Assembly (NCBI GenBank): GCA_020438215.1
Contig: JAGQUX010000025.1
Span: forward strand, 1-35,384
From: Armatimonadota bacterium
GTDB lineage: Bacteria; Armatimonadota; Fimbriimonadia; Fimbriimonadales; Fimbriimonadaceae
Length of the DNA stretch: 35,384 nucleotides
Direction: 5' to 3'
Shown piece by piece: positions 26,071 through 34,952 of this stretch. The first letter of the stretch is position 1; each line of letters opens with the position of its first letter. Below the pieces are notes generated by a model, which did not search any database, was not told the origin of the DNA, and was given only the letters and a program-made list of their open reading frames with translations. The position numbers were made by a program, and so were the translations under genes.

Positions 26071-26484
26071 ATGGCAACAGCACAACACGATCACTCGCAC
26101 AGCCACCACATCATTCCGATGCCGGTGCTGATTGGGAACCTGGTACTCCTTGGTTTCCTGATGGGGGCAACCATTTGGGCGGCTCAGTCTTTGCCAGCGA
26201 TGCTTCACAGTTCTGGTTTGCCGGATGCGCAAATCTCGCTGATCATGAACATCGTTGCTTTGACGATTGCCTTTCTCAAGGCAGGCTTTGTCATTGCGAT
26301 CTTCATGGGAGTCAAGTACACGACGAAACTGGTCAAGCTCTACGCGATTGGTGGTTTTGTCTGGTTCTGCTTGATGTTTATCATGTTTGCCGACTATGCC
26401 ACCCGTCCGATGGAGCCGGTGCATGGTTGGGAACCAGAAATCCCGTCGGCACTGCCACGAAACACCTCCGAAATCCCCGACTAA
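26071..26484 (+). CDS. ctaF: Cytochrome c oxidase subunit IV, prokaryotic type
   Basis: This 137-residue protein has a His-rich start (ATAQHDHSHSHH) and three membrane helices, with the COX4_pro-like pattern LTIAFLKAGFVIAIFMGVKY in the middle. It is the final gene of the respiratory operon, 4 bases after ctaE. Its TAA overlaps the stop of the convergent plsC-like gene by two bases. Confidence 0.88.
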   Translation: MATAQHDHSHSHHIIPMPVLIGNLVLLGFLMGATIWAAQSLPAMLHSSGLPDAQISLIMNIVALTIAFLKAGFVIAIFMGVKYTTKLVKLYAIGGFVWFCLMFIMFADYATRPMEPVHGWEPEIPSALPRNTSEIPD

Positions 26485-27182
26485 TCGGAATTCGGTTCGG
26501 AATCAACTTCCCCGGCTTCATTTGAAGTCGGGGAAGTTTGTTTTTGGGGTTGTCCGGTCAAGGCATGAAGCTCGGCATTAATCCAACTCATGATCTCCTC
26601 AGCTGACGCCTTGGGAGGAAACGATTTGGGTTCGCCCCAGTTTGCGTGGAGAGAGGCTCGTTTGCGGCGCATCTTTGTTTCCCCAAACGGCATGAGAGCA
26701 TCGGTGCCGCTGATCCCCACGCATTGACAAGTCACGCCTGTTTTGCGGACGATCAGTGAAGAGCCGGGTAGGAGTTCTCGGAGCAATCCATCTTCGCTCA
26801 GTTGCCCCTCTGGAAAGATCACCACTGCGCGACCATCTTCGATGAGGTCAATCGCGGTTTTAAGTGCGCCTTTATCCGCGCTCGACTGAGTGACAGGGAA
26901 CGCTCGAAACCATCTCACGAGCTTTCCCAAGAATCCCATCGTAAATAAGTCGCGGCGCGCCATGAAGTGCACGGGACGGCGACAGGCGAATTGAACTAGA
27001 ACCGGGTCAATATTGGAAATGTGGTTCGAGAAGATGAGGAGCCCCCCGCGCTTAGGAGTTCTTCCGCGATTTTTGTAGCTCATAAACCCGCCGTACACGG
27101 CAAAAATCAACCAAGCTAACACCTTGATCACCGGGAGGAGGATCACCAGTGCGCGGGAGTGGTGTAGCTCGGGCCGCTTCAT
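26481..27182 (-). CDS. plsC: PlsC-like lysophospholipid acyltransferase
   Basis: This 233-residue membrane acyltransferase probably converts lysophosphatidate to phosphatidate. It has an N-terminal helix (about 11-32) and the catalytic HX4D motif His54 to Asp59 in FSNHISNIDP. FPEGQLS at 123-129 is the phosphate-binding motif, with Gln and Leu where Thr and Arg are usual. It is coupled to purN by an ATGA overlap. The last 20 residues (PQKQTSPTSNEAGEVDSEPN) are low-complexity and are encoded by the DNA that also forms the terminator of the opposite operon. Confidence 0.85.
   Translation of the reverse strand: MKRPELHHSRALVILLPVIKVLAWLIFAVYGGFMSYKNRGRTPKRGGLLIFSNHISNIDPVLVQFACRRPVHFMARRDLFTMGFLGKLVRWFRAFPVTQSSADKGALKTAIDLIEDGRAVVIFPEGQLSEDGLLRELLPGSSLIVRKTGVTCQCVGISGTDALMPFGETKMRRKRASLHANWGEPKSFPPKASAEEIMSWINAELHALTGQPQKQTSPTSNEAGEVDSEPNSD
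26505..26545 (+). terminator. Rho-independent terminator of the respiratory operon
   Basis: AACTTCCCCG and CGGGGAAGTT form a 10-bp stem, extended inside by a G-T wobble and CTTC/GAAG around an ATTT loop. TGTTTTT follows on the plus strand. It lies 21 bases after the ctaF stop but inside the 3' coding end of the convergent minus-strand gene. A T-rich run is not found on the other side, so it should work mainly for the plus strand. Confidence 0.85.
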
Positions 27183-27763
27183 GAAAGTAATTGTCGGATG
27201 GCTGACGGATAAGCCTCGTGCTCTAATTCAAGGACGCGGGTGGCTAGCGTTTCTGGGGTGTCATATGGCTCGACCGGGCAACGGAGTTGCAGGATTGGGG
27301 CACCTTCGTCGTATTGCTCGGTAACGTGGTGGACTGTGCACCCGGATTCGGCTTCCCCAGCTGCGATCACGGCTTCATGGACATGCATTCCGTACATCCC
27401 CTTGCCGCCGAACTTAGGGAGCAAAGCGGGGTGGATATTGATCACGCGATTGGGGAGCATTTGGAGCACAGGTATCGGGAGTAGGAAAAGGAATCCCGCT
27501 AAAGCAATGAGTTCGATTCCGTTTGATTTCAGTACGTCTAAGAGGGCTTCGGCATAGCCGTCGTCTTTGGGGTTGAGGACGCAGGTTTCGACATCCATTT
27601 CCTTCGCTCGCTCAAGCGCGGGTGTATTGGGTCGAGTGCCAATGACGAGAGTGGCTTCGGCGGGGAAGTCAGGGGACTGGGCGTGTCCGATCAGGTTCGC
27701 CATGTTGGAGCCGCGCCCCTTGCCGCCGACCATGATCGCCATTTTCACCCGCTTTTGGCTCAT
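27179..27763 (-). CDS. purN: Phosphoribosylglycinamide formyltransferase PurN
   Basis: PurN transfers a formyl group from 10-formyl-THF to glycinamide ribonucleotide in purine synthesis. The 194-residue form has the GKGRGSN nucleotide loop and the catalytic triad Asn109, His111 (INIHPALLPKFGG) and Asp152 (VTEQYDEGAPI). I chose the ATG at 27763 because it gives the normal length; the open frame continues upstream to 27838 into the DUF2961 gene. No clear Shine-Dalgarno is seen. The stop overlaps the plsC-like start. Confidence 0.9.
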   Translation of the reverse strand: MSQKRVKMAIMVGGKGRGSNMANLIGHAQSPDFPAEATLVIGTRPNTPALERAKEMDVETCVLNPKDDGYAEALLDVLKSNGIELIALAGFLFLLPIPVLQMLPNRVINIHPALLPKFGGKGMYGMHVHEAVIAAGEAESGCTVHHVTEQYDEGAPILQLRCPVEPYDTPETLATRVLELEHEAYPSAIRQLLS

Positions 27764-27788
27764 TTCAGGTTTAGTTTGGCAAATCCGC

Positions 27789-28937
27789 TTAGATGATTGG
27801 GTCGTTATCGGGATTGCGCCTTTCTGTGCCCCAGACATGATCTAAGCCGAGATCCTTGCGGAAAGATTCTCGCCAGCGGAGTACGTCGTTCGGGGTGGGG
27901 CGAACTTGGGGTCGCCGTTCTGCCGCCGGGGGCATCCCGGGAAGAACCTGGGACGGTCGATCTTGGTACCAATACGCCACCGATGCCAAATCCAGGTTCA
28001 AGCAGTTCGCATGACCGTGTTCGATACTCGCATGGAGATTGAACTGGAACCGGATGGGGTCAGTTGGGTGGAAGCGGTAGACATGGTGCCTTCCCAGCCA
28101 ACCCCAGCGTGGATCATCATTGCCCATTCCGGGGGCGTAGGCGATTCCGAAATGCGGGTGGTCAAACAGCTCATCTGGTGACCAGGCGGTGTTGAAGTAA
28201 TCCTCCGTCCCTGTGCCGTGGAGCCCGGGCCATGCCTCGCCATCAATCAGGAACATATCATCCCCCTCGCCATACCACATGGGGGATGAGTTGTTGATGT
28301 AAAAGTTCACCCCGACAAAGTGGCCCTTCCCTTCCGTGGCAACCCAGAGGTAGTTACCATCATTCGTAGGGTGCTTTTCGTAGGGGCCAAAGGTGGCCCA
28401 CTCGTTTTCTCTCCCAACTTCGCAGGTGGTGAGCTCTTGGTTGTACCAAGCGTGGAAGAGGCCAATGTCGTGCGGAACCTCGGTGGCTTCGTAATCAACA
28501 TAAAAGTACAGCCGCTCAACATCTACGTTTCCTTGATTCACGAGTTCAATCTTTGCGCCCTTCCGGTAAGGCATTGGGAAATAGCAGACCAAGGCTTTAC
28601 CCCCGCGGGGAGCTGCCGCTAGCCATGGGGAAGAAAAGAGATATGTTTCGCCCCACCCCTGCCCAAAGAAGTCTCCGATCGGAGCTTCGACGGAGGGTTT
28701 ATCGGAGCCGTCCCAGTACGCACGGATTAGGATATCTTTGCGGTGCCATTCGCTTTTGCAGGCAATTGTAATCCAGATGTGTTGCACCACCCCGGAGCCT
28801 GTGGCTTCCATGATGATGACTTTCTCTCCCGCCGGGAGTGTCCAATAGTCATCATTGCCGCCGGAGGTGTCGTAGCTACTGGTTCGGAGCGAACGCCCGT
28901 TCGTGATTCGCGCAATATCATGGTGCGACCAATCCAT
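27789..28937 (-). CDS. DUF2961 / GH172-family protein
   Basis: This 382-residue protein has the GH172 (DUF2961) signature: GEGDDMFLIDGEAWPGLHG then TGTEDYFN around residues 223-249, with an N-terminal half starting SSYDTSGGNDDYWTL and ATGSGVVQHIW. Known GH172 members act on fructofuranosides and arabinofuranosides and form jelly-roll oligomers. There is no signal peptide, so this copy is cytoplasmic. It ends 26 bases before purN and starts 35 bases after the cyclase stop. The substrate is unknown. Confidence 0.88.
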   Translation of the reverse strand: MDWSHHDIARITNGRSLRTSSYDTSGGNDDYWTLPAGEKVIIMEATGSGVVQHIWITIACKSEWHRKDILIRAYWDGSDKPSVEAPIGDFFGQGWGETYLFSSPWLAAAPRGGKALVCYFPMPYRKGAKIELVNQGNVDVERLYFYVDYEATEVPHDIGLFHAWYNQELTTCEVGRENEWATFGPYEKHPTNDGNYLWVATEGKGHFVGVNFYINNSSPMWYGEGDDMFLIDGEAWPGLHGTGTEDYFNTAWSPDELFDHPHFGIAYAPGMGNDDPRWGWLGRHHVYRFHPTDPIRFQFNLHASIEHGHANCLNLDLASVAYWYQDRPSQVLPGMPPAAERRPQVRPTPNDVLRWRESFRKDLGLDHVWGTERRNPDNDPII

Positions 28938-28972: not shown

Positions 28973-31162
28973 CTATTTCCAGCTCATTTGATACGCGCCC
29001 GACCAGTCGTCATCGGGTGGAAGTTCAATGAAGTTCTCACAGCGGGTGTGGAGGATTCGCGCGGGTCCGTCTTCAGGATCAAGCGCAACGACCTTTGCAA
29101 ACAGATCGCGTGCCTTCACCCAATCCCGCGCGAGATAAGCCTCGGCGGCTGCGTTGTGCATTTCAACCAACTCGACTTGCTCGGGGGTTGCGTGAGCTTT
29201 GATGGCAAGCGGTTCGTAGATTGGCTCTGGCTCTTCGCGATTGAAGACGCCAACAACATCCACCATGCGAGCAAGGATTTCATCGGATGCTTCCAAGTAC
29301 GTTTTGTTGCTGATGAGGATGTTAGTCCCGTAAAACTTGTTGAGGCTCTGCAATCGGCTCGCGAGATTCACCGAGTCACCGATGACGGTGTAGTTCATCC
29401 GGCGCTTGTTGCCGACATTGCCGACGATCACATCTCCGGTTGCAATTCCGAAGGATGCGGTCAGGATGGGACGACCTTCTTCGCTCCATTCAAAGTGCAT
29501 ACGCTCTAGCCCTTTGAGGGAGTGGAGCGCGCATTTCACCGCCACAACAGCGTGATCACTGGTGATGGTGGGTGCCCCCCAAAACGCCATGACGTCATCG
29601 CCGTTGAACTTATCGAGCGTGCCGCCGGTTTCCAGGATCTCGTTGCTGAGGACTTCCAGATATTCACCGAGAACAGCGATCAGCTCTTCAGGCGGGAGCT
29701 CGTGGCTGAGCTTAGTAAAGCCGACGATATCGCCAAAGTAGGTGGTGATGTGCCGCCTTTCGCCCCCGAGCTTTGCTTCTCGTCCGCTAGCAATCAGGGT
29801 GCGGGCATATTCGCTCGGGACGAGCTTTTCTAGAGAGCGAAGACTGGCTTTGAGAGTCTCCACCGAGCGGGAGAGATCATCCACTTCGCGGATACCGGAG
29901 CGGGGAAGCGGCGACTCATCCAGGTTCAATTTTCGGATTTTTGCTGTCTCCTGGGCGACGCGGGAAAGCGGCTTAGCAACACGCTCAGCAAAGAGATAGC
30001 TGATCAATATTCCGAAAGCAAGAGCAAGAATGCCGAAGGTGATAAAGAACGCGGCTGTTTGTTTGCGGCTCGTCAAGAAGTCATCCTGCGGAGCAACCAC
30101 AGCCATTACCCAGCGGCTGTTTTCTATGGGCAGGAATCCACCTAGATAAAGCTTTCCATTCACCCGGAAGCGAATGAAATCGACGGTTGAAGAGGCTCGA
30201 CGTGATGTGCTGGAGAGCATCCCCATAACTTCGGTCAGGGTTGGCTCTTCGAGTTCCTGGACGGTTGCAAGTCGGGGCTCACCCTGATCGGTGACAAGGA
30301 GTTTTTGTCCTTGCGGCCATGCGATGACTCGCGGCTCGCCATCCAGCCCGTATTCAGCGAGGAAAGCGTATCCATCCTGACCAACTTTGATGGTTTGCAG
30401 GAATGCGCTCATTTCCGGCAGGGTGAGCGAAATTGAAACTGCTCCCCGGAAATTGCCGTTCCGATCTACGATTGGAGTCATGCAGGTGAGGCCCAGCACG
30501 GAAGCACTGGTGGAGCGCACGCCGCGAATCACTTGGACGGGAGACCAAACCGTTTCAGAATTCTCTTTGCACCTTTCGTAAGTGATGTCGTCGCGTAAGT
30601 CGAGATCGCTTTTGTCTGCCGCTTCGCTAGGGATCAGGCGATCCCCGAATGGGATGAATTGTTGGCGGGTTTTGGATGCTCCCGCCCCGCTTAAAGTTTG
30701 AACGCGAACACCTTCGGCCGGGCTCTGGAAAATCTTGACCGCTTCGCCGGTTGTGTCGAGGATGAGTGAACTGGAGCCGTACTGAGGATTCACCCTCATC
30801 ATCTCATACATTTGGGCGGCGTAAGAAGGGAAGGAGTTCGAGGTGAGATTTCGGGTCGTTCCTTCGATATGCTGCGCTCCACTCCCGATCGAAACATCCA
30901 CCAAACTGGGGCGAACTAGCCCGGCAAGGAACTTCACCTCTGATTCTGTTTGGTCGATCAGGGAATCAACACGCCGGTCGATGAGGTTGGAGGTTTGGAC
31001 AATGACCCGTCGGGAGAGGTCATCAGCAGCGATGCCGGCTTGCCAGTAAGTAAAGAGCCCGACAATGAAGATGGTGAAGAAGATGACCGTGGTCATCCGC
31101 AGGATAATGACGGAACGGAAACTGAGGTTGAGTCTTCTCCTTTTCCGTCTGATAATTCCCAT
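28973..31162 (-). CDS. Membrane adenylate cyclase (class III) with extracytoplasmic sensor
   Basis: The 729-residue product has a helix (17-40), a large extracytoplasmic Cache-like sensor (about 45-365), a second helix (370-392), HAMP (392-445), a class III cyclase catalytic domain (466-640) and a helical C-terminus with one TPR-like repeat (665-705). The metal-binding Asp478 and Asp522, the adenine-selecting Lys518 with Thr592, and the transition-state Asn599 and Arg603 are all present, so cAMP is the likely product. The start follows the MFS-HEAT stop by 3 bases, so the two are cotranscribed. The sensed ligand is unknown. Confidence 0.92.
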   Translation of the reverse strand: MGIIRRKRRRLNLSFRSVIILRMTTVIFFTIFIVGLFTYWQAGIAADDLSRRVIVQTSNLIDRRVDSLIDQTESEVKFLAGLVRPSLVDVSIGSGAQHIEGTTRNLTSNSFPSYAAQMYEMMRVNPQYGSSSLILDTTGEAVKIFQSPAEGVRVQTLSGAGASKTRQQFIPFGDRLIPSEAADKSDLDLRDDITYERCKENSETVWSPVQVIRGVRSTSASVLGLTCMTPIVDRNGNFRGAVSISLTLPEMSAFLQTIKVGQDGYAFLAEYGLDGEPRVIAWPQGQKLLVTDQGEPRLATVQELEEPTLTEVMGMLSSTSRRASSTVDFIRFRVNGKLYLGGFLPIENSRWVMAVVAPQDDFLTSRKQTAAFFITFGILALAFGILISYLFAERVAKPLSRVAQETAKIRKLNLDESPLPRSGIREVDDLSRSVETLKASLRSLEKLVPSEYARTLIASGREAKLGGERRHITTYFGDIVGFTKLSHELPPEELIAVLGEYLEVLSNEILETGGTLDKFNGDDVMAFWGAPTITSDHAVVAVKCALHSLKGLERMHFEWSEEGRPILTASFGIATGDVIVGNVGNKRRMNYTVIGDSVNLASRLQSLNKFYGTNILISNKTYLEASDEILARMVDVVGVFNREEPEPIYEPLAIKAHATPEQVELVEMHNAAAEAYLARDWVKARDLFAKVVALDPEDGPARILHTRCENFIELPPDDDWSGAYQMSWK

Positions 31163-31165
31163 TTT

Positions 31166-33526
31166 CTATCGCTTAGGATGATTCTCCGCTTTTTGCATGT
31201 AGATGATCCACGCAACGAGGAACCCTTCTTCTATCGGTTGATCGGCTAATGCCCTTAATGAATACGCTTCGCCATTCAGTTTCGTTGTGTTTTCGGCGAG
31301 GGTTTTCAGCGCGTCTGCTTCATTCCCGACCGAGTACAACTCGAGCGCACTTTTGAGGATACTGTCCTTTTTAATCTGAGTGCGCGATTTTTGTAGAATC
31401 TGAGTGTCGCGAGCGACCGCATCCATTGCAAAGATGCGATAGGTTTGCGCTTCGACACCAACTAATCGGGCTACACCGAGGAGGCATCGTCGCCGCTTAG
31501 CTGCACCGATTGCACTTTCGGCGGCGGTGAGGATTGCGGGGATATCTTCTCGGGAACCCACCGCGCCTAGTGAGTATGCGACTTCTGACGAGCCTTCGTC
31601 TTGGAACCACTCGAGGGCTTGACGGATATTGGGAGCGAGTTCCACGATCTCAAGCTCAGACACAGCCTCGGCAGCGGCTATGCGGACGCTGGGGTGTTGA
31701 TCGAACAGGGCGTCGGCATAGTAGTCGGGGTTGTTGGCTTCCATCATCCGGAGTGCTTGGATACACGCACGACGCAGATCAGGGTCACCGGGTTTTTGGG
31801 CTTGTTCAGCTAGCGCATCAATTGCGGCCGGCTCTCCGAGGCGACCGAGGGCTCGCGCGGCGGCACGCCGGAAAATCGGGCTGGGATCATCCAGGAACTT
31901 GACGAGTACGCGAACGCTCTCTGGATTTTTTGCCCATCCAAGCGCGACCAGTGTTTCCTCTTCGACAAGTTCGGGCTGAGACTCGATCAGGTCGATCATG
32001 GCTTGAGCGGCTTCGGGAGTGCCCACGTGCCCGAGCGATTCAGCGGCTTGACGGCGTACTTTCGGGCTTGGGTCTTGGAGGGCGGAAGCAAGTTCCACGG
32101 TCGCAAGTGCCATCTGGGATTGCCCTACAGCTCGTACCGCAGATTCTCGCGCATCTTCACTTTGGCTGGATCGCATTCCGCGAAGAGCCTTGACCCCTTT
32201 CGGGCGAATACTGACAAGGGATCGGAAGGTGGCGCGGATGCTGGTGGCGCCCGCTTCTCGAACAGGGATGAGGCTGAGCATCGCTGCAAACCGAAAGACC
32301 ATGGTGAGAATGAAAATCCACTTATACGCCCACTCCACGCCAAGCGGCGCACGGAGATTTGACATGAGGAGTGATCCCGCCATTGGGGCGACGAACATCA
32401 TCATGGATTGAACCGTCAGGGCTGTGGCAAGGTAGTCAGCGCGTTCTTCTGGTTCGCTGGTGGCCAGATAAAGGTTCATCTGACTGGTGGCAACGCCTGG
32501 CCAGAAGATTCCGGGGAGGATATGTCCGCTAATTAAGATGACCGCATTCCATATCCCTAGGGAAGGATTCGTGAATATCCACATCAGCGGGGTGATGCTC
32601 AGCCCGGCAGTCAACAAAACCAGGATCGGCTTGTTGCCGTATTTGTCTGCCAGGTAGCCCCAAATGCGAACGGTGAGAATCGTGCCAATTGAGAAAGTGA
32701 TCCCAGTGAGTTGGAGCACCGTGAACGGCATATCCAGTGATTCCAATGCGTAGGCGGAGAACAGGTTTCCGGCAAAGCTCTGCCCGAGGCAGAACACGCC
32801 GATAAAGAACATGACTTTGCGGAAGTTCTTATCTCGCCAAGGAGTGCGGACAACGTTGACGATCCCGCTGAGTTTGGCGGGCTTTGGGTTCTCGCGGACT
32901 GTGTCCTTCATCCGGAGATAAAAGAGCATGCTGACAATCGCACAGGCAAACCCGATTGCAAAGACGATTGTGTAGCCGACGTGCTCGTTGGGTGTGTCTT
33001 TGAACGTATCGAGAATGCGACCGCCAACGAGGCCAGCAATCAATCCGGCAACAGTAGCAACCAGGCTCCGATTACTAAAGAACCATCCGCGATTGTTCTC
33101 GGGGATGATTTTGCCAAGCCATTCGTTATAGATAGGCCCGACAAGTTGGATGGCAACCGATGCCATCCCCACACAGCCGATGAGCATCACTAGCTTGGCT
33201 TGGTTATTGAACGGCAAGAAGGGCAGGAAAACCAGCGGAAGATAGAGCAGTCGCCAGATCCACCCCCCAACCGCGATGTAATTCTTGAAAGACTTCTTTG
33301 ATCGCCCGAGAACTGCACCTGGAATTTGGAGCAAGCCCATCAGAGCCGGGACGGCGCCGACAAGTCCAACCCAAAAGTCAGATTCCGGCCCACCCAGGTA
33401 CTTGATGAATCCAACAATGATGGCGCCACCAAACAGCGATACAAACGCGTTGGCAAATGCGTTATCAATATTTGCCGAGCGGAGAGTATTCAGCGTATCA
33501 AGGCGGCTGGTTTGGATTTCAGGCAT
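31166..33526 (-). CDS. MFS transporter fused to C-terminal HEAT repeats
   Basis: The 786-residue product joins an MFS-type transporter domain of about 12 helices (20-425) to HEAT repeats (about 450-700) and a helical tail. The linker RYLADKYGNKP-like loop appears as GYLADKYGNKP near residue 290. Repeats with the PSPKVRRQAAESLGHVG, PSPIFRRAAARALGRLG and PSVRIAAAEAVSELE pattern are typical HEAT units. The transported substrate is unknown; the soluble repeats are likely cytoplasmic and could bind a partner. GAGGAG lies about 14 bases before the ATG. The cyclase gene follows after 3 bases. Confidence 0.9.
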   Translation of the reverse strand: MPEIQTSRLDTLNTLRSANIDNAFANAFVSLFGGAIIVGFIKYLGGPESDFWVGLVGAVPALMGLLQIPGAVLGRSKKSFKNYIAVGGWIWRLLYLPLVFLPFLPFNNQAKLVMLIGCVGMASVAIQLVGPIYNEWLGKIIPENNRGWFFSNRSLVATVAGLIAGLVGGRILDTFKDTPNEHVGYTIVFAIGFACAIVSMLFYLRMKDTVRENPKPAKLSGIVNVVRTPWRDKNFRKVMFFIGVFCLGQSFAGNLFSAYALESLDMPFTVLQLTGITFSIGTILTVRIWGYLADKYGNKPILVLLTAGLSITPLMWIFTNPSLGIWNAVILISGHILPGIFWPGVATSQMNLYLATSEPEERADYLATALTVQSMMMFVAPMAGSLLMSNLRAPLGVEWAYKWIFILTMVFRFAAMLSLIPVREAGATSIRATFRSLVSIRPKGVKALRGMRSSQSEDARESAVRAVGQSQMALATVELASALQDPSPKVRRQAAESLGHVGTPEAAQAMIDLIESQPELVEEETLVALGWAKNPESVRVLVKFLDDPSPIFRRAAARALGRLGEPAAIDALAEQAQKPGDPDLRRACIQALRMMEANNPDYYADALFDQHPSVRIAAAEAVSELEIVELAPNIRQALEWFQDEGSSEVAYSLGAVGSREDIPAILTAAESAIGAAKRRRCLLGVARLVGVEAQTYRIFAMDAVARDTQILQKSRTQIKKDSILKSALELYSVGNEADALKTLAENTTKLNGEAYSLRALADQPIEEGFLVAWIIYMQKAENHPKR

Positions 33527-33740: not shown

Positions 33741-34952
33741 ATGATATTTCCTTATCGCGCAAAGAATCCACCGGAGAATTTCCCTATTGTCACGATTGTT
33801 CTGATCGTGCTGAACATCGCCATATTTGCAGCGACATCCGATGGATGGATGATCCGAGAGGACATTGCCCATCTTTGGGGTTTGAAGTCCACAAACATCG
33901 GGCAAGGGACGATGTTCACCTCCATGTTTCTGCACGCGGACTGGTTCCACTTGCTCGGGAATATGTGGTTCCTCTATCTGTTTGGGTTTGCGGTGGAAGG
34001 CAAGCTGAAGTGGCTGAAGTTCATTATCCTTTATCTTGCTGCGGGTGTTGGCGGAGACTTACTCTATATGGCGATGGCATCAGGTGGGTCTGGTGACATC
34101 CCGGGGATTGGTGCATCGGGGGCGATTATGGGATTGCTGGGAGCATCGCTTTGGATGTTCCCGCATGGCAAGATCAATGTCTTCTATTGGTTCGGGATTG
34201 TCTGGATCGGCGTTTGGGAATGGCCGATTTGGGGGGCTGCGCTTTACTACTTGGGACTTGATGTAATTGGGGCAATGCTCCAATTGAGTCTATTCGATGG
34301 AGGCGGAACGAATCACCTTGCCCACATCGGGGGCGCCTTGGGCGGGTTCCTATGCGCTCTTCTATTAAGAGTCAAGCGCGATGACGAATATGTGAGTGAA
34401 GCGAAGAGCACCCTGGCAGAAGCGAAGGATTTGAGCATGCTCACGCGAATCCAATTGCGTGACATGTGTAGTGTCCAGCCGGATGATTCGTTGCTTGCGC
34501 ACCACTGGATGTATAAGAGTCAGCAATCTCCACCGGTGACCGATGAGTGTATTCAGCACTTTATGAAGCATCTTCCCAATATCGTCAGAGAAGGTGATGG
34601 GGCAAGTGCGGCGGCTTGCGTTGCCGGATTGATTGACCAAGGGACGGTCTTTGACAACAAGGTTTTGCTGGATTGCGCGGGGGCGGCAGAGAAGTCTGGA
34701 GCGACAAGCCCCGCGATTAAGCTGCTCACCACAATCCGGAATTCGCAGCACGCAACCAGTGATGATCTGGAAACGGCGACCTTCCGACTGGCTTCTATCT
34801 ATGAGCAGTGGATGAACAACCCCCACAAGGCCCTGGAGTTGTTTCAGGAATACCAGCACCGGTGGCCAATGAGTCCCATGGAATCGGTCGTTCGGCAGAA
34901 GATTTCTGTTCTCACTCAAAAAGTGCAACAGGCACCCCGAAACCCCTACTAA
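33741..34952 (+). CDS. Rhomboid-family intramembrane serine protease with helical C-terminus
   Basis: This 403-residue protein has a rhomboid domain (about 15-212) with the catalytic Ser126 in GIGASGA, His195 in NHLAHIGGALGG, and the family HXXXN motif His70 to Asn74. The C-terminal half (about 235-395) is hydrophilic and helical with TPR-like character (ETATFRLASIYEQW). Rhomboids cut transmembrane substrates within the membrane; the target here is unknown. The GTGAG just before the ATG supports the start. The next genetic element is an rRNA operon. Confidence 0.9.
   Translation: MIFPYRAKNPPENFPIVTIVLIVLNIAIFAATSDGWMIREDIAHLWGLKSTNIGQGTMFTSMFLHADWFHLLGNMWFLYLFGFAVEGKLKWLKFIILYLAAGVGGDLLYMAMASGGSGDIPGIGASGAIMGLLGASLWMFPHGKINVFYWFGIVWIGVWEWPIWGAALYYLGLDVIGAMLQLSLFDGGGTNHLAHIGGALGGFLCALLLRVKRDDEYVSEAKSTLAEAKDLSMLTRIQLRDMCSVQPDDSLLAHHWMYKSQQSPPVTDECIQHFMKHLPNIVREGDGASAAACVAGLIDQGTVFDNKVLLDCAGAAEKSGATSPAIKLLTTIRNSQHATSDDLETATFRLASIYEQWMNNPHKALELFQEYQHRWPMSPMESVVRQKISVLTQKVQQAPRNPY

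Follow-up and report, generated by a model that had tools for sequence, protein, structure and literature searches.

Gene content and domain architecture of the locus

The window analysed here, a stretch of 35,384 nucleotides from a Fimbriimonadaceae genome of the phylum Armatimonadota, carries on its reverse strand a gene for a major facilitator superfamily (MFS) transporter with C-terminal HEAT repeats (hereafter MFS-HEAT), followed by genes for a sensor cyclase, a GH172 glycosidase and two further enzymes. The features are as follows.

31166..33526 (-): MFS-HEAT gene, 786 aa (open reading frame, Pfam MFS_1 and HEAT_2, AlphaFold2 model)
32273..33505 (-): 12-helix MFS domain, aa 8-418 (AlphaFold2 helices, MFS structural matches, K/R-rich loop 6)
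31181..32239 (-): C-terminal HEAT solenoid, aa ~430-782, predicted to be cytoplasmic (HEAT_2/HEAT/HEAT_PBS, AlphaFold2, PDB profile matches)
31163..31165 (-): 3-base spacer AAA between the MFS-HEAT stop and the cyclase ATG (sequence reads TAG AAA ATG)
28973..31162 (-): membrane sensor adenylate cyclase, 729 aa (open reading frame, Guanylate_cyc 3e-15, invariant catalytic residues)
30077..31045 (-): extracytoplasmic Cache-like sensor region, aa ~40-362 (dCache_1 3.4e-8, below the Pfam cut-off; AlphaFold2)
29837..29992 (-): HAMP linker, aa 391-442 (HAMP 3.5e-4, below the Pfam cut-off)
29243..29767 (-): class IIIb cyclase catalytic domain, aa 466-640 (alignments, residue check)
27789..28937 (-): GH172 (DUF2961) alpha-D-furanosidase without apparent signal peptide (DUF2961 3e-76; PDB 4kq7, 8ah3, 7v1v)
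27179..27838 (-): purN-like formyltransferase (Formyl_trans_N; PurN equivalog slightly below cut-off)
26481..27182 (-): plsC-like acyltransferase (PF01553; downstream in some genomes)

A preliminary description of this DNA had recognised a 12-helix transporter with a C-terminal cytoplasmic HEAT solenoid and, 3 bases later, a sensor cyclase. Both genes, their coordinates and the TAG AAA ATG junction are confirmed; the GH172 gene, which belongs to the group as its third member, had been missed. Divergent from MFS-HEAT lies a gene for a rhomboid-domain protein (33741-34952, +), and a few other genomes have genes for related rhomboid proteins upstream of MFS-HEAT.

In the 786-aa MFS-HEAT protein, Pfam identifies MFS_1 (5e-19) and HEAT_2 (3e-32), with the repeats assigned to PF13646 and PF02985. 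In the AlphaFold2 model (alignment of 47 sequences, mean pLDDT 93.4), residues 8-418 form 12 membrane helices and residues ~430-782 a solenoid of helical repeats, whose profile has PDB matches to alphaRep and HEAT proteins. Residues 7-427 align with MFS transporter structures at Z 30-34 (VIA-align), so that the superfamily signature and the 12 helices are found by Pfam, AlphaFold2 and structure alignment, and we are sure of the MFS fold of the modelled protein; a role as a solute transporter is predicted. The only strongly basic loop is K/R-rich loop 205-232, after helix 6, which, together with the 12 helices, places the C-terminus in the cytoplasm. An assignment of the substrate class from structure was rejected, given that YegT, SPNS2, MdfA, SotB, MCT and G6PT tie; the structures aligned at Z 30-34 comprise nucleoside, lysolipid, sugar-phosphate, drug and monocarboxylate carriers.

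The cyclase model contains a beta-rich region between two membrane helices, for which the dCache_1 score is 33.7 bits vs. a curated cut-off of 45, hence the designation Cache-like. All six catalytic residues (D478, K518, D522, T592, N599 and R603) are intact and invariant in an alignment of 17 ortholog sequences. They comprise the features of class IIIb, namely, two metal-binding Asp, the adenine Lys, Thr at the second adenine position, and the transition-state Asn and Arg, which, given established knowledge of class III cyclases, we take to predict ATP as the substrate and subclass IIIb; accepting this reading of the residues, the product is predicted to be cAMP. The best catalytic-domain alignment is with Pseudomonas aeruginosa CyaB (PDB 3r5g; 38% identity over nearly the full domain), and identity to Spirulina CyaC (1wc0) is ~33%, again over nearly the full domain. 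Like CyaB and CyaC, the window cyclase has the adenine Lys, and Thr in place of Asp, whereas the guanylyl cyclase Cya2 (PDB 2w01) has Glu where the window cyclase carries Lys. Unlike CyaB and CyaC, it sits in the membrane and has a Cache-like sensor outside the cytoplasm, a HAMP linker and a helical tail at its C-terminus. The Thr of class IIIb cyclases is merely thought to predict regulation by bicarbonate (PMC3383692).

The GH172 protein combines the DUF2961 domain with a catalytic Glu pair, E224 and E245, spaced 21 residues apart, plus D246. The pair of alphaFFase1, E270/E291, has the same spacing (PMC8605356), and the equivalents in DgGH172c are E233/E254/D255 (PMC10115798); the known activities of GH172 enzymes are cleavage of alpha-D-fructofuranosides or alpha-D-arabinofuranosides (PMC8605356, PMC10115798). 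Because its N-terminus is polar, the enzyme is probably cytoplasmic and in need of an importer.

Linkage of the cyclase and MFS-HEAT genes across genomes

Defining cyclase orthologs as full-length proteins scoring >700 bits to the profile, we identified them in 26 genomes of 11 genera. Six weaker matches (in G012, G156, G169, G030 and G147, and a second one in G159) were left out as paralogs, and none of these is near MFS-HEAT. Among the 26 genomes, 24, representing 11 of the 11 genera, encode MFS-HEAT within 3 kb of the cyclase, and in 20 (G000-G008, G014, G022, G023, G029, G032, G149-G151, G157, G159 and G162) the cyclase is located immediately downstream on the same strand. G029 was counted as adjacent although a contig end splits the pair, the MFS contig reaching the cyclase N-terminus and the remainder ending another contig. 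Wherever the junction of an adjacent pair is intact (19 pairs, that of the window included), the genes overlap or are at most 67 bases apart. The four further pairs, all <3 kb, are on the same strand in G148 and G160 and convergent in G010 and G158. There are two exceptions: G017 retains both genes ~110 kb apart, and G011 has the cyclase without MFS-HEAT. The window's own genome encodes four class III cyclase domains, so that a chance neighbour would be a cyclase in well under 1% of cases. The pairing is thus beyond chance, and the preliminary description, which had suggested that the two genes could form a transport-sensing unit, stands insofar as the pair is conserved.

The GH172 gene adjoins the cyclase in 16 of the 26 genomes (6 genera) and is unlinked or missing in the other 10, and purN, used as a control neighbour, does so in 10 of 26 (2 genera, the only two in which the purN-like gene is downstream). 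The cyclase-GH172 pair is intact where MFS-HEAT is inverted (G010, G158) or missing (G011), which suggests that the closest functional tie may be that between these two.

In a tree of 59 MFS-HEAT proteins (a quick tree with SH-aLRT support and no bootstraps), those from cyclase carriers form a single group (SH-aLRT 100) of 25 carriers and one non-carrier, G161, which comes from a 77%-complete genome. The pattern is explained by one gain and one loss, or an assembly gap, and indicates that the pairing arose once.

Conserved adjacency could reflect shared expression only, with MFS-HEAT a housekeeping protein, perhaps of the cell envelope, whose transcript the cyclase and GH172 genes joined without a common pathway. 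The presence of plsC and purN downstream in some genomes speaks for this reading. However, the adjacency of the cyclase survived in 11 of 11 genera despite turnover of the other flanks, which suggests more than a bystander, and we consider this explanation rather unlikely, although the wider distribution of MFS-HEAT described next speaks in its favour.

MFS-HEAT is older than the cyclase

With E <1e-40 as the threshold, 211 of 291 Armatimonadota genomes encode MFS-HEAT, in most cases in a single copy. It is found in 80 of 85 Fimbriimonadaceae genomes, most of these without the cyclase ortholog. MFS-HEAT is thus phylum-wide and far older than the cyclase, and the origin of its HEAT tail therefore does not lie in docking the cyclase. 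In protein pairs matched for MFS identity (0.38-0.46), HEAT identity is 44.4% inside the cyclase clade vs. 48.2% outside; the pairs compared are related, and the difference is a hint only. Co-constraint of HEAT and cyclase was accordingly rejected, the HEAT part being less, not more, conserved in the cyclase clade, and these sequence identities hint that the tail is under no extra constraint where the cyclase is present. A later recruitment of the tail by the cyclase would be compatible with these observations.

The preliminary description had proposed that the HEAT domain meets the cyclase or another regulator. As the reason for the tail, docking of the cyclase does not hold, given the 211 of 291 genomes and the identities above. 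In its full form, the proposal is a physical unit in which the HEAT tail binds the cyclase and the state of the transporter gates cAMP synthesis. HEAT solenoids bind proteins, the genes are adjacent, both products are predicted inner-membrane proteins with cytoplasmic effector domains, and transporters of the NTT-HEAT type precede, or are fused to, cAMP-binding domains (PMC5381601). Against these points, HEAT predates the cyclase, persists without it and is not more conserved in its presence; the cyclase occurs alone in G011 and far from MFS-HEAT in G017, and it carries a sensor region of its own. On balance, we regard direct gating as improbable. The preliminary description had also named rarity of cyclases next to MFS-HEAT homologs as evidence against its proposal: such neighbours are indeed rare phylum-wide, but not inside the one clade. 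The observation is therefore true, whereas its interpretation is half right, being supported in part.

The neighbours of MFS-HEAT vary by lineage, and in some lineages none is conserved. In families f3 and f5, MFS-HEAT closes a same-strand run of cdaA (encoding c-di-AMP synthase), ybbR and a GNAT gene (L068:3232-8107; also L066, L070, L074 and L078). In family f12, it directly follows, and sometimes overlaps, rodA in six genomes (L158:2776-6538; also L155 and L144), with secA divergent alongside in five. In family f2, a putative lipoprotein of ~240 aa, with no Pfam match, is encoded directly upstream in 10 genomes (L071:4945-5685 and relatives). Among the fetched loci, only one class III cyclase was found near MFS-HEAT outside the carrier clade, in G098 (L141:6286-7830). 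It starts 47 bases downstream on the same strand and runs off the contig, and its architecture differs (Guanylate_cyc, AAA/NB-ARC and TPR).

The RodA and CdaA contexts are tied to cell-wall growth. These placements of MFS-HEAT, after rodA in f12 or after cdaA-ybbR-GNAT in f3 and f5, together with its phylum-wide and mostly single-copy occurrence, count in favour of a housekeeping role and hence of shared expression only.

MFS-HEAT could also be an exporter of the second messenger that its neighbour synthesises (cAMP here, c-di-AMP in f3 and f5). Two different lineages place the gene beside an adenine-nucleotide cyclase, and the MFS pumps MdrM and MdrT have been linked to the release of c-di-AMP by Listeria. 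However, neither neighbour is beside MFS-HEAT in most genomes, and each placement is a single evolutionary event, so that export appears very improbable. A broader reading, in which MFS-HEAT is a general Armatimonadota platform coupling transport state to nucleotide second messengers, would draw on three separate placements, beside the adenylate cyclase (the Fimbriimonadaceae clade), CdaA (f3, f5) and the AAA-type cyclase (G098); we give it little credence.

HEAT-less MFS proteins of the same family occur in G016 and G027 (439 and 461 aa; L046:5854-7173 and L055:1705-3090). Beyond Armatimonadota, a search of 84,980 species for MFS-HEAT was read at its 80 best places, for organism names only, and the distribution given here is that within the phylum. 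A Fimbriimonadaceae-type MFS-HEAT gene (48% identity) is also present in JADZEW010000021.1 (L182), titled as a Methanoregulaceae archaeon, which is probably a mislabelled assembly.

Proposed function of the operon

On the basis of the observed gene content and domain architecture, the intact active sites and a conserved linkage that arose once, we prefer, tentatively and at somewhat less than even probability, a co-expressed uptake-and-sensing operon whose cyclase detects a periplasmic ligand by itself and is coupled to the transporter by shared expression and a shared ligand. Such an operon, presumably transcribed as one unit, would have been assembled once, in the ancestor of one Fimbriimonadaceae clade. 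The ancient MFS-HEAT protein would move a small solute across the inner membrane, presumably inward, while the Cache-like domain of the cyclase would read a periplasmic ligand, leading to cAMP synthesis inside the cell. The cytoplasmic GH172 enzyme, where present, may cleave an imported alpha-D-fructofuranoside or alpha-D-arabinofuranoside, and the substrate of the operon is probably a furanosyl sugar; because MFS-HEAT persists throughout the phylum with no GH172 gene in its vicinity, the two proteins need not share a substrate. cAMP would act through separate cAMP-binding proteins, for which the window's own genome offers five candidate domains of the cAMP-receptor type. The coupling of transporter and cyclase would most likely proceed via shared expression and ligand, presumably without direct contact, and the HEAT tail would serve an older partner.

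Comparison with known systems

A literature search found nothing relevant on MFS-HEAT fusions, the function of which is apparently undescribed in the literature searched. A protein-binding tail on a transporter, kept phylum-wide, offers a way into the question of how transport and regulation are joined, and the operon would specifically link a sugar hydrolase and a transporter to cAMP, in bacteria with little-studied cAMP signalling.

The closest published analogue is the association of NTT-HEAT transporters with cAMP-binding proteins. NTT-HEAT and NTT-HEAT-cNBD proteins are multi-helix transporters with C-terminal HEAT repeats, some of which have a gene for a cyclic-nucleotide-binding protein only a few bases downstream, and a link to adenylate cyclase was suggested by Major et al. 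2017 (PMC5381601). The window protein likewise joins a multi-helix transporter to C-terminal HEAT repeats, but the transporter belongs to MFS_1, not to the NTT/TLC domain PF03219, for which it has no match up to E 10; a PF03219 search of its relatives gave zero matches, but the control genomes were likewise without a match, so that this outcome does not establish absence from the relatives. Furthermore, the window neighbour, a class III cyclase, is predicted to make cAMP, whereas the NTT neighbour binds it, and no downstream or fused cNMP-binding domain (cNBD) was found on the window contig. Unlike NTT-HEAT, the MFS-HEAT fusion is spread through Armatimonadota. Together with NTT-HEAT-cNBD, this would make two cases, from different transporter families, in which a transporter with a HEAT tail is linked to cyclic nucleotides.

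The combination of GH172 with transport also has a counterpart. In Bifidobacterium dentium, a cytoplasmic GH172 enzyme is encoded beside a putative sugar importer (PMC8605356). That operon contains an ABC importer and a LacI regulator, whereas the window operon contains MFS-HEAT and the adenylate cyclase.
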